From Ridgeia piscesae (lineage: Eukaryota; Annelida; Polychaeta; Sabellida; Siboglinidae), in contig JAODUO010000132.1 in assembly GCA_025642075.2 (NCBI GenBank), positions 741,118 through 805,117 of the forward strand: a stretch of DNA of 64,000 bases, given 5' to 3'. The position numbers were made by a program, and so were the translations under genes. Each line of letters begins with the position of its first letter. Position 1 is the stretch's first letter. Below the pieces are notes generated by a model. That model saw only the letters and a program-made list of their open reading frames with translations. It had not been told where the DNA came from and ran no database searches. Below are positions 27,001-48,000 of the stretch, one piece after another.

Positions 27001-30000
27001 ACACGGTCCTAATATCTCCTGGTTTGTTTTATGGCCACAGGGTCCTAATCTCTCCTGGTTTGTTTTATGGCCACAGGGTCCTAATGTCTCCTGGTTTGTT
27101 TTGTAGCCACAGGGTCCTAATCTCCCCTAGTTTGTTTTGTGGCCACAGGGTCCTAATCTCCCCTGGTTTGTTTTATGGCCACAGGGTCCTAATCTCCCCT
27201 GGTTTGTTTTGTGGCCACAGGGTCCTAATCTCCCCTAGTTTGTTTTGTAGCCACAGGGTCCTAATGTCTCCTGGTCTGATGACTTTTGTAGAGTCACAAG
27301 TGTCCTTCGCCAAGTCACGCTATGAGGTGGTTGAGAGCATCAGCAAAGTTCTGGTGCCAGTGCGACGCAGTGGAGATCTATCCGAGGAGCTCCTTGTCAT
27401 CTGTTCAACTCTTGAAGGTCAGCCTCTATTCTGCGTCCTCATCAACAAGTTGTCGTGTCAGTCATCAACCCTGCAGTCATGTGATATCTGTGTCAACAGA
27501 AACTGTGTAGCTAATTTTATATGAAACGTGGCATTGTTTAAAGTGCAAGGTTTTTTATTGTAAAGTCTGATAAAGTAGTCATGTTGCACAATATTATAAA
27601 AGTACTGACTGTCCAAATGTGTTATAATGAACATTTTGTTGTTGTTGAAATTTAAGTGTTTCAGGTGGGGACTAATTTGTATACATGACAATGTACCTTT
27701 TTCAAAAATGTTGCTATAATGCTGCACATTGGCAGTAGAAGTTCACACCAAAAATTTACTAACGATAGTAAAGTATCAGCATAGGTTAGATATTAGAAAG
27801 TGTATCTTTTCACAAAGAACTATAAATGCCTGGAACAGACTGTCTGCAGATTGTGTGGATGGAAACATTGTGACTGTCAAAAACAACATAGACAAACACC
27901 TCAGGCAGAAATATATATATATATATATATATATATATATATATATATATATATATATATATATATATATATATATATATATATATATATATAGATAGAT
28001 AGATAATAGGGTTTGAATCAAAACCCAAAGGCTTCCCTGTCTACTTGACAATTAGAGTGTATTCGCAGATGGCAATCTTATTAAATATCTTGAAAAATAA
28101 TCTTCTTCGTAAATTATCCAAACTTGTCATTCAACTACTTGAGTGACAGCGAATTGTTTGACGAATGATCTCACTGCTGTCTGTGTGCAGCCTCTGCCAG
28201 GGGGACTACATCAAATGCCGTCACATCTTTCTCTGACTACGTGAGTCGTCCTGCGAACCATCGCAGCGTTATCGTGTTTGCTCCAAACATCACTGAGAAA
28301 TTCTGCTCCATTACCATCATTGATGATTCCCTGTACGAAGACGAGGAAGAGTTCAAGGTTGTTCTTGCCATGCCAATTGGAGGCCGGCTGGGCTCAGTCA
28401 ACGTGACAGTGATTGCCATCAAGCCTGATGAGAAAGACGGTAAAACAATTAATCAATTGACCTTTATCACACACGCACGCCGCACCACACCGCACCGCAC
28501 CGCACCGCACCGCACCGCACACACACACACACACACACACACACACACACACACACACACACACACACACACACACCACAGTAATGTCAATGTTAACTCT
28601 CTATTGTGATGGCTGATTTAACACATGTATTGTAATGTTTAGTCACATATGTAACATAGTTTTACTTTATTTTGCAAACATCCCTGATAGCCTCTTTAGA
28701 GACATGTGAAGTCAGAGCCAGACTGATTTCATTTGGTAGAAAAGTCAAGCAAATAAGGATCATCTCTCTCTATGATGTCTCTTAGGTGTGTATGGACATA
28801 TACATGTGCGCGCTCAAGTACCATATGTATTTACAAACTAGAGTAATCCAGATTGTCTGTATTCTTTAGATGATTTAAAAAAAATTACATTGTCATTTGA
28901 AGCCAACTTAAAAGCATTCTAGCGCTAAAGACATAAGCATCACCCAGCATGAATGTGACGATTACAACTGTTTACAAAATAAATCCACCATAATGACTAC
29001 ATATTCAGACATGTAAAAATGACTAAATTCTGAGCTGTGCAAAAACATAGAATACACACAAATGATTACTTTTCGTGCCTAGAAGAAACATACAGCCCCA
29101 ATGTATTGTATGGACTTGGACACTTAAAAAACAGTAGCTCTCCGAAGACTGAATTTTGTTTTTAATTTTTATGGTATCTGAAAACGTTCGTACCTAAAGT
29201 CACTACGCTACTTTATAATTATTGTCTGATTCTTTGTCAAGACGTCAAGCTGTTATACCTGAGGGACGTCCTCGCCTGTTTCAGTTCCCGTCTTCTATTT
29301 TGATGTGGACAGCTACAACGTGGATGAAAGTGACGGCTTTGTGAATGTCAAGGTCTGGCGCACTGGGACAGATGACAGTCAGAAGGCCTCGGTGACAGTT
29401 CGCTCTCGCAAGACTACTCCAGCCTCGGCTCAGTGTAAGTGACAGTTGGCTCGGCTCAGTGTAAGTGACAGTTGGCTCGGCTCAGTGTAAGTGACAGTTG
29501 GTTCAGTGTAAGTGACAGTTGGCTCAGTGTAAGTGACAGTTGGCTCAGTGCAAGTGACAGTTGGCTTAACATGAGTGCTATTTGATGAACTGCAAGTGAC
29601 AGTTGACTCAAGTGTAAGTGACAGTTGGCTCAGTGCAAGTGACAGTTGGCTTAACATGAGTGCTATTTGATGAACTGTAAGTGACAGTTGGCTCAGTGTA
29701 AGTGACAGTTGGCTCAGTGCAAGTGACAGTTGGCTTAACATGAGTGCTATTTGATGAACTCTAAGTGACAGTTGGCTCAGTGTAATTGACAGTTGGCTCA
29801 GTGTAAGTGACAGTTGGCTCAGTGTAAGTGACAGTTGGCTCAGTGCAAGTGACAGTTGGTTTAACATGAGTGCTATTTGATGAACTGTAAGTGACAGTTG
29901 GCTCAGTGCAAGTGACAGTTGGCTCAGTGCAAGTGACAGTTGGCTTAACATGAGTGCTATTTTATGAACTCTAAGTGACAGTTGGCTCAGTGTAATTGAC

Positions 30001-45000: not shown

Positions 45001-48000
45001 TGAACATTGGCGAACAGATTTAATATATTGAACTAATGACTGCTCCTTCTCAACAGGCGGGACTAATCAGGTGACTTTGATATGTTTAACTAATGACCAT
45101 TTCATGTCAACAGGCGTGACCATTCCAGCGACTATGATATGTCGAACTAATGACTGCTCCCTGTCGACAGGTGCGTGATTACTCAGGCGACTACGTTGTG
45201 AAGCTGGTCCCCTGCACCACCCCGATGGAGCAGCGGTACTCCCGCCCCATCACCTGCAACCCCCATCCCGCTGTGCCCTTTGACCTACAGATCCGGTTCC
45301 AGCAGGTCAGTGACCCCGTGCCAGCTGAGTTCAGTCTCAACACCCAATTCCACCTGATGAAGAAGAAGTCACTCTGGCTGTCAGATGGATCCGCAGGCTT
45401 CGGAGAAGGCATCGACTCCTCGTTCACTGCAGGTTGGTGCTGGCAGAGACACATGACAGTGTCACATAGGAGACTTCCACAGTGGTAGATGATGATGCCC
45501 TGGCATAGAGAGGGTGATGTCCTGTCATAAAGACTATGATGTTCTGTCCCATAGGTGACTATGTCTTGGTATAACGAGGAGGATGACCTAGAGATTGAGG
45601 TGAAGATGTCCTGTCAAAAAGGTGATGATGGCCTAAAGGTGATGGTCCTGTCATAAAAGTGATGATGACCTAGAGGTGGTGATGTCCTGTCATAAAGATG
45701 ATGATGATGTCAAAGCAGTTGATGTCCTGTCATAAAAGTGATGATGACCTAGAGGTGATGATGTCCTGTCAAAAAGGTGATGATGGCCTAAAGGTGATGG
45801 TCCTGTCATAAAAGTGATGATGACCTAGAGGTGATGATGTCCTGTCAAAAAGGTGATGATGGCCTAAAGGTGATGGTCCTGTCATAAAAGTGATGATGAC
45901 CTAGATGTGATGATGTCCTGATATAAAGAGGATGATGTCCTAGAGGTGACAATGTCCTGTCAAAAAGGTGATGATGACCTAGAGGTGATTGTGAAGATGT
46001 CCTACATGTGATGATGTCAAGGTATAAAGAGGATGATGTCTAGAGATGATGATGTCTCGTCGTAGAAGTGATGATGATCTATCATAAAGGGTACGATATC
46101 CTAGAGATGGAAATGTCCTGTCTTAAAGGGTATGATGTCCTAGAGGTGATGCTGTCTTGTCAAAAAGGTGATGATGACATGTAGATGATGATGTCCTGTC
46201 ATTAAGAGGAGGAGGACCTACCATTAGAGGTGATGTCCTTCAAAAAGGTGATGATGGCATAGAGGTGATAATGTCCTGTCCACTATGGTCATAAATATTA
46301 AGGGATGATAAATCATTGACGTGTTGTAGATGACTGGATCTACGGGCGGATCATGACGGATCCTGTGCAGAGTCTGGGCGAGTCGTTCAACATGGGCCTA
46401 GAGAAGTTGTTCCTGTGCACAGGCAGGGACGGCTACATCCCCAAGTACGACCCCGTGAACCGCGAGTACGGCTGTGTGGCCGACTCACCCAACCTTCTGC
46501 ACACGCTCAGGATCCTGGTGGGTGGCCCACAATGCACCATAATAGTTGTAGTTGTTTCTAGCACTCGGCAGTGTTCTGTTAATGAATAGTATATATATAT
46601 ATATATATATATATATATATATATATATATATATATATATATATATTATATTACAATGTTATTATTATCATATATATATATATATATATATATATATATA
46701 TATTACAATGTTACATATTATCATAATGGTGTCTCGTTGAATAAGTCAGTTTTTTTTCTGAACACTTATTTGTTCCATACCGACACACCATCTATTGCAA
46801 CGATCAATATCTTTAAGATAGCTCTAAAAATCCATCTCTTCAAAGTTTACTTTGAATAATACATGTGGACATTCCTGGACATGTCTTGGACGACATGTGA
46901 CACTGACTGTATACATTTTATGAAACTGATTTTTTAACTATTTGTCATTACAAGAATTGGTATATTTGATAACGATGTTACAGGTTTTTGTGATTCTATA
47001 ATGAATGGTAATTATATAAGGTTTTAAAACGGTGTTTCTCAGCTTGTTAATGGCCCCACGTCTCCCAACTCTTTTGCATGTATCGCACTGAAAATTTGCA
47101 TACAATCCAGCAAGCCCACCAGTGTTTATAGCCAGGTATTCATTCGTACAGCTGTGTGAACTGCCAGTATTTATAGCCAGGTACTCATTCGTTCATTCGT
47201 ACACCTGTGTGAACTGGAGCAATACAGACTGGTTGAACTTGCTGAAGGTTTGACACAGCAACACAGGATTTGAACTCAGGTTCTCTTAGTCGAGAGACCG
47301 AAGCTTTAGCCACTGCGAGTAGTTCACAAGATTAGTTCACCCTGTGTTGCACCAGTTCACTCATGTGTATGAATGAGTGTATGAATGAGAATGAGAAGTA
47401 AACAGTGTGTTCAAATGAGGTCTGGCAGGCAGTGAACTTCAGAAAATTGTAAAAATTTATTTGAGCATATCTTTGGACTGAATACAGCACTATACAGCAA
47501 CTTATCTTTATCGCTTACTAATGCTTCAGAATGTCACTAATTGGAGTGATTCTGGTGATGTTGACAAGTGATTGTGTTATCGCAGGACCGCGGTGCCCCG
47601 GAGACAGAAACGAAGAGTTTCCGAGGCGTCAACTTCAGAGCCATCATGGCCGCTGATGACCCTGAAGCCGTCAGCCTGGTTGCACAGCCAGGGTCCGATG
47701 GCTTCCGCATCTCAGCAAAGCCTCTCTTCCAGGTAAAGCTTATAGTTTTATATACTCTCAAATTCTGTTTTATCCTAAGGTAATGCGGACAGAGTCGAGT
47801 GGTGTGAGTCACTTTATACTGTTCCACTGTTGTGTGCTGTTAGATACATGCCCCGAGTAGAAGGTTGTTGCCAATATCATTGTCAAACTAACACGCTGTA
47901 CCAACTCCATGCCACCAAAATGTACCCTCAGGTCAGAACCTTTGCCACCTATCATAATTATGAGAGACCTGTTTAACCTAAGGGATCTCATAAAGTTGTC

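Follow-up and report, generated by a model that had tools for sequence, protein, structure and literature searches.

Tandem arrays with copies of adjacent splice junctions in introns of the FREM2 gene of the annelid Ridgeia piscesae

The DNA stretch analysed here (in the following the window) comprises the terminal 64 kb of contig C132 (JAODUO010000132.1) in the 628 Mb assembly of the annelid Ridgeia piscesae and carries 22 exons of the gene FREM2. Several introns of this gene contain minisatellite arrays whose units include the adjoining splice junction together with bases of the exon. The scores given below support that these arrays derive from the real junctions, repeatedly and beyond chance similarity. 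Outside FREM2, further cases were found in the paralogue FRAS1 (three or four, all at acceptors) and in a dynein heavy-chain gene (one, at a donor). It is a real and recurrent feature of this genome and represents a known kind of structure in a new lineage. As an explanation, which we consider probable with some reservation, the arrays are 'mirage'-type minisatellites that result from tandem duplications starting at 3' splice sites or close to them and that are kept on the intron side only.

The gene model within the window is as follows:

20885..47732, + strand: FREM2 exons A to V, 22 exons, every intron GT-AG, stop-free frame of 1,242 amino acids with five Calx-beta stretches

Exon 1 is located upstream of the window on the same contig and shows two apparent frameshifts (C132 ~738740 and ~740705), which are probably assembly indels. 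A spliced alignment with the Lingula protein reproduced 17 of the 17 model introns between 28440 and 47585 and added one intron at 47733-49717. The top-scoring named relatives (among the best 120 of 527 hits in one search and the best 120 of 720 in another) were FREM2-like and extracellular-matrix-protein-3-like proteins. Among the matches listed, the FREM2 stretch showed an identity of 60% to Lingula and of 57% to both Haliotis and Tachypleus, and for a Branchiostoma record the value was 56%. In a 19-row tree its place is beside Lingula and the molluscs, with a moderate support of 86/90, apart from Branchiostoma and vertebrates. In a preliminary description of the sequence the gene had been termed FREM2-like; the 22-exon model and the protein relatives bear this out, the gene being FREM2. 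The introns numbered 8, 10, 11, 12, 16, 18, 19 and 21 in that description correspond to F-G, H-I, I-J, J-K, N-O, P-Q, Q-R and S-T, respectively. The arrays and copies in these introns, delimited by Tandem Repeats Finder (TRF) or by alignment, are:

29424..30376, + strand, F-G: donor-spanning array, unit of 21-26 bp with 11 exon bases and gtaagt (TRF)
31874..32620, + strand, H-I: first block, 30 bp acceptor unit, ~25 copies (TRF)
32610..32804, + strand, H-I: second copy of exon I with downstream flank (alignment)
32813..33022, + strand, H-I: second block, crossing the real acceptor and reaching 12 bases into exon I (TRF)
33692..33819, + strand, I-J: acceptor-touching array with a weak exon-side match (TRF periods 22 and 51)
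34823..34867, + strand, J-K: displaced single copy of the donor junction of exon J (alignment)
37600..37777, + strand, N-O: array with an 81 bp unit, 2.2 copies, acceptor and 26 exon bases (TRF)
41705..42640, + strand, P-Q: array with a 45 bp unit, ~21 copies, acceptor and ~30 aligned exon bases (TRF)
43325..43721, + strand, Q-R: array with a 38 bp unit, ~10 copies, acceptor and first exon bases (TRF)
45023..45171, + strand, S-T: array with a 57 bp unit, 2.6 copies, acceptor and first exon bases in a gapped alignment (TRF)

By its TRF bounds, the P-Q array ends 64 bp short of the acceptor, the final copies being diverged.

For the exon side, each unit was rotated to the splice boundary and scored against its own exon end, against 54 further exons from these two paralogues, FREM2 and FRAS1, as well as against 1,000 shuffles of its own exon. 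The own exon and the best other exon scored 11 and 3 for F-G, 12 and 8 for H-I, 26 and 7 for N-O, and 19 and 4 for P-Q, and in none of these four introns was the own-exon score reached by any of the 1,000 shuffles. Narrower margins were obtained for Q-R (8 and 6, with 1 of 1,000 shuffles reaching the score) and for S-T (8 and 7, with 0 of 1,000). Units that combine a junction with exon bases had been described for seven introns; this is confirmed for introns 8, 10, 16, 18, 19 and 21, while the exon side of intron 11 is weak, and the proposed number of at least seven independent events in one gene is therefore reduced to six on strict evidence. The description of the sides was accurate, with a donor array in F-G and acceptor arrays in the remaining supported introns according to the exon-side scores. 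The same applies to the displaced donor copy in J-K, which aligned with 36 of 43 matches and 2 gaps and scored 41, while none of 200 shuffles exceeded 26.

When the units of the seven named introns were compared with junctions, the best row of each array reached 40-85 on its own junction and no more than 12-21 on any other junction of FREM2, in line with the earlier statement that the units are mutually unrelated; in the random-position control of this scoring, some positions lay next to the same exon or array and contaminated part of it. An ungapped test covered 108 junctions from 54 introns (22 of FREM2 and 32 of FRAS1) and missed S-T and I-J. A copy scoring at least 22 was found in the own intron at 8 of these junctions, and in the 53 remaining introns every junction stayed below a score of 16.

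The FRAS1 paralogue lies on contig C40 and was modelled in two parts, one from a Pecten protein (33 introns, of which 32 were used, and a stop-free frame of 1,956 amino acids) and an N-terminal one from a fish protein (19 introns, several of them doubtful), which was added later and is the less sure model. Acceptor arrays of FRAS1 showed exon-side scores of 19 versus 8 at 94961 and of 30 versus 3 at 121780, and a displaced exon-start copy with 10 versus 7 was determined in the intron ending at 117065. The dynein heavy-chain gene was taken as the best hit of a search that matched 20 contigs; five of its introns were sampled, with the exon ends read from the frame without protein alignment. It contains a donor-spanning array of 50 bp units including the exon end, which scored 23 compared to a maximum of 9 in 1,000 shuffles. 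Among the other arrays in the five sampled introns, one begins 9 bases past a donor and one with 44 copies is interior. Altogether, junction-spanning units were observed in six FREM2 introns, in two to three FRAS1 arrays (94961, 121780 and, less surely, 119457) and in one dynein array. A gene on C865 was left uncounted due to the poor quality of its model, which was based on a distant protein; no array was seen by eye at the junctions of its first five introns.

Two FRAS1 features stand on their own. The array at C40:105429-106040 consists of a 20 bp unit that opens with GTGAGT and closes with CTGTAG, resembling a row of mini-introns; it reaches the acceptor, and TRF extends it 2 bases beyond. 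At C40:119458-119475, the exon start GTGATCTTCCTGT is similar to the polypyrimidine part of the upstream array unit, as if the acceptor tract had been supplied by coding sequence.

The direction of copying can be derived from conservation. The copied exon starts are largely conserved with Lingula, aligned examples including VLNLKQSYVSVRVP and GPGDPTHPNMVRLS. Since the exon bases found in the arrays encode residues largely conserved in Lingula, the sequence was copied from the exon into the intron. Use of the outermost splice site leads to a sensible protein, as judged by the open frame and by homology.

Among the other explanations, the one that survives best, doubtful as it is, would be plain minisatellites with arbitrary seeds, which cover junctions by chance in array-dense introns that are short after collapse, so that the splice sites themselves are irrelevant. 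With all arrays reduced to one unit, a random seed often covers a junction because the collapsed introns are short and the units long. Random placement alone yields about 2 overlaps for the 17 FREM2 arrays, a chance contribution that the preliminary description had overlooked. Compared to this expectation, 6 of the 17 arrays overlap a junction (P 0.006 and 0.005), and 10 of 17 lie within 30 bases of one compared to 4.17 expected (P 0.001). For FREM2 and FRAS1 together, the acceptor overlap amounts to about six times the expectation (9 of 27 arrays versus 1.49, P 3.6e-6), whereas the donor overlap (1 of 27 versus 1.49) lies at the chance level, as arbitrary seeds would give. The acceptor overlap holds in the whole of FRAS1, a gene outside the preliminary description, with 4 of 10 arrays versus 0.52 expected (P 7.6e-4). 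Nine choices of automatic thresholds resulted in 4 acceptor overlaps of 5-9 clusters for FRAS1 (P 7.5e-5 to 1.6e-4) and 4-5 of 16-27 clusters for FREM2 (P 0.001 to 0.009). Furthermore, selection should purge duplications at junctions more than interior ones, so that the expectation would be, if anything, too high. The earlier proposal of recurrent duplication starting at exon-intron boundaries, compared here with randomised boundaries in FREM2 and FRAS1, consequently stands above expectation for acceptors and not for donors, and the symmetric junction-seeding idea should be restricted to 3' splice sites, where arrays are in excess.

From the counts over the 27 arrays, AT-only arrays and periods below 15 were dropped, as were one block each of F-G (the second) and H-I (the first), whose units are those of the neighbouring blocks, and, in FRAS1, one array at 119759 with a score of 49 and four arrays within the final, doubtful intron of 6.8 kb. 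P-Q was not scored as an overlap, due to its TRF end 64 bases before the junction. The FRAS1 array at 98182-101312 was retained as a miss although the model is doubtful there.

A number of points weigh against a seeding at acceptors. The C-terminal part of FRAS1 alone showed 2 of 6 overlaps versus 0.70 expected, which is not significant (P 0.14), and 3 of 6 arrays within 30 bases versus 1.46 (P 0.14). The split into acceptors and donors was made post hoc, after the data had been seen. The nine acceptor overlaps include I-J, for which the own exon scored 4, the best other exon 7 and 24 of 1,000 shuffles reached the score, and the FRAS1 array ending at acceptor 106038, for which no exon-side match was found. 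At 119457, the own exon scored 6 and thus did not beat the best other exon with 7 (1 of 1,000 shuffles). Counting strict cases, 9 acceptors (119457 included) stand against 2 donors (P 0.065), with dynein as a further donor. Moreover, FREM2 was chosen because the pattern had been seen there, and the cases outside it come from FRAS1 and one dynein locus.

In a base-by-base profile, no peak of copies was observed at the junctions, which also speaks for arbitrary seeds. Inside FREM2 introns the profile is level at ~16-36% of points, copies appear across the boundary, and none were found 40 or more bases into exons; for FRAS1, copies are few, with mostly 1-3 of ~30 determined at acceptors and 0-1 at donors. 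Much of the visual pattern can therefore be explained by dense intron arrays that are truncated by coding constraint. Beyond such arrays cut off by exons an acceptor excess remains, in small and partly post hoc counts from two paralogous genes. Separate cases of junction copies in three genes and an acceptor excess in two paralogous genes are thus on record.

If duplication is indeed seeded near 3' splice sites, a short tandem duplication, caused by replication slippage or by unequal or intra-strand exchange, would act on a segment across or beside the splice junction, and would be more frequent at the 3' splice site, which has a pyrimidine-rich tract. The subsequent growth in copy number would persist on the intron side only, because the exon is under coding constraint, and this constraint would let the array reach the exon and end a few bases inside. 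The splice site used would be the outermost intact one adjoining the exon, and the remaining copies would be drifting passengers. Three points of this scheme are inferred: slippage or exchange as the mechanism, splicing at the outermost site, and the cause of the excess at acceptors.

As a more tentative extension, it is possible that 3' splice sites recurrently seed tandem duplication from cephalochordates to spiralians, and that in the present genome this is general, lengthening introns at their acceptor end and planting copies of the acceptor and exon start. If true, intron sliding, exon extension and intron gain could all draw on these copies as a lasting reserve.

It is very unlikely that the arrays are assembly artefacts created when noisy long reads were collapsed or expanded. 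The two frameshifts of exon 1 and a broken frame on the COX1 contig would fit such an origin, as would the exon I copy in H-I with 23 gaps in 227 bases, nearly all of them deletions. Against it, most rows of the FREM2 junction arrays show copies that differ by many substitutions (TRF matches of 73-93%), several arrays are short with 2-3 copies, and an identical anatomy was found on three contigs. The exon I copy itself, with 179 of 194 matches and its gaps nearly all short deletions, was rejected as a dead duplicated exon, since the gap pattern suggests an assembly error; it is probably an artefact of unpolished reads or assembly. Due to such unpolished stretches (exon 1, COX1 and the exon I copy), the copy numbers of the arrays are unreliable. 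One query with exon O, a single-exon search, revealed no second haplotype copy in the assembly. The broken reading frame of mitochondrial COX1 lies at C3158:12438-13633. A COX1 search, in which the 7,997 candidates with most shared words were scored and 120 listed, gave identities of up to 74% and among them no close named relative. The order on this contig, nad3-trnS-nad2-cox1-trnN-cox2-cox3 (using 2 of the five tRNA candidates of ARAGORN), appears to agree with the annelid order. An amphioxus origin, which the work on mirages would suggest, was rejected on sequence identity, tree position and this gene order.

Very improbable, too, is an interpretation of the arrays as remnants of introns born when exon sequence was duplicated in tandem (Rogers-type intron gain), a route proposed in the part of the amphioxus globin paper drawn on here (PMC3087553). 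Compared with the paralogue FRAS1, the only one used for intron positions, F-G, N-O, P-Q and Q-R have no counterpart within 6 residues. However, a FRAS1 counterpart is missing in 4 of the 7 named introns and likewise in 5 of the 14 others, and I-J is common to FRAS1 with identical codon and phase.

Least probable of all is that the arrays were selected as decoy or regulatory splice sites: an AG or GT with context is still present in many copies and single letters of the dinucleotides are kept in full in P-Q, Q-R and FRAS1 118836, but in seven arrays with mixed ranks the copied AG/GT pairs are not consistently better kept than other unit positions (the G of AG in half of the Q-R copies, the GT in 73% of the F-G copies; FRAS1 121379 copies being too uniform for such a reading), which leaves the decoy selection suggested in the preliminary description unsupported.

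Besides the arrays at junctions, FREM2 and the dynein gene contain the following features:

21525..22128, + strand, B-C: array of a 24 bp unit x 25, beginning 11 bp past the donor, donor excluded
24073..27275, + strand, C-D: array of a 36 bp unit x 90, carrying ccacag/GGTCC and stopping 16 bp before the acceptor
34445..34746, + strand, J-K: interior array, no match to the J-K junctions
38070..40265, + strand, O-P: array of a 32 bp unit, beginning 23 bp past the donor (TRF)
38731-38754, + strand, O-P: weak displaced donor-like copy (alignment)
43957..44048, + strand, R-S: interior array, no match to the R-S junctions
45597..46280, + strand, T-U: array, no significant match to the T-U junctions
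184493-185684, dynein gene: array away from junctions
183669-183774, dynein gene: microsatellite away from junctions

C-D was considered as an extra junction case and found unsupported, with an exon-side score of 3 versus 4 for the best other exon and 77 of 1,000 shuffles reaching it. The displaced donor copy in O-P was left as weak instead of a firm case, its score being reached by 1 of 200 shuffles.

The window also contains repeats of other kinds. A dispersed element of ~190 bp recurs with 74-89% identity:

10010-10210, 11098-11304, 19994-20189, 3627-3796, 17998-18122 / 18273-18354 and 18606-18700: copies of the ~190 bp element

One of these copies, at 18 kb, contains an array (18093-18303) formed by expansion of a 20 bp piece from its interior. 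A stretch of 580 bp, probably a recent mobile element, is 97% identical between window 48900-49480 and L031:2410-2985 (C40 ~127410-127985), with internal tandem repeats in each. A short interspersed repeat occurs at 30930-31240 and 47116-47308, with pieces 72-85% identical and a further copy in L025, and positions 8318-8724 form a nearly pure (TGAC)n run of ~100 units. Rfam showed zero matches within the window at gathering thresholds.

For annotation, introns of this type are a hazard, as they hold many plausible false splice sites, each followed by exon-like sequence. That a spiralian carries such arrays at several introns of a gene, in two paralogues and an unrelated gene, makes acceptor seeding a question that can be tested genome-wide. 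It raises the question of acceptor sites as mutational seeds and of how often new introns or displaced exon ends originate from these arrays.

Compared to known systems, the arrays share with ordinary intronic minisatellites and variable number tandem repeats the head-to-tail units and diverged copies, and differ in that the seed lies on the acceptor junction more often than placement predicts. Introners likewise are repeated DNA in introns bearing splice sites. In contrast to them, the P-Q unit, the one tested, matched only the window among the window and 30 of 38 loci. Intron gain by tandem genomic duplication, as in the potato RdRp gene in the part of PMC4974935 considered here, also involves tandem duplication with splice-site sequence, whereas the present arrays lie on the intron side of existing introns. 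The internal tandem repeats of human paralogues, in the corresponding part of PMC2812944, resemble them as repeats within genes that affect gene structure.

The closest likeness is to the 'mirages' of amphioxus, tandem repeats spanning exon-intron boundaries (PMC3087553, PMC3902484). The gene-wide pattern of junction-seeded arrays, which could not be placed in the literature at first, is thus of a kind already known. In the parts of these two papers used here, mirages are discussed for amphioxus and possibly as a general cephalochordate phenomenon, with Adh3 and the globins BflGb6/BflGb9 as mirage genes (PMC3087553), to which PMC3902484 adds PGBD5 and cites troponin C. Among titles and abstract beginnings of open-access papers, with subscription papers mostly outside, no junction-spanning case outside cephalochordates was found; the paper on human repeats (PMC2812944) might bear on this.

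As far as described in these parts, mirages are minisatellite-like, span exon and intron on the 5' or 3' side, and consist of units of ~10 to 160 bp in identical or imperfect copies. Either exon boundary is involved in the present genome as well, with donor arrays in F-G and dynein and acceptor arrays in the others. The difference lies in the taxon, a spiralian (annelid) genome, and not in the structure; in addition, several arrays per gene occur here in two large paralogous genes, and they were set against a placement expectation, by which the acceptor excess was found. What is new is this excess, from small and partly post hoc counts, the presence of several cases per gene and the occurrence of such arrays in a spiralian.

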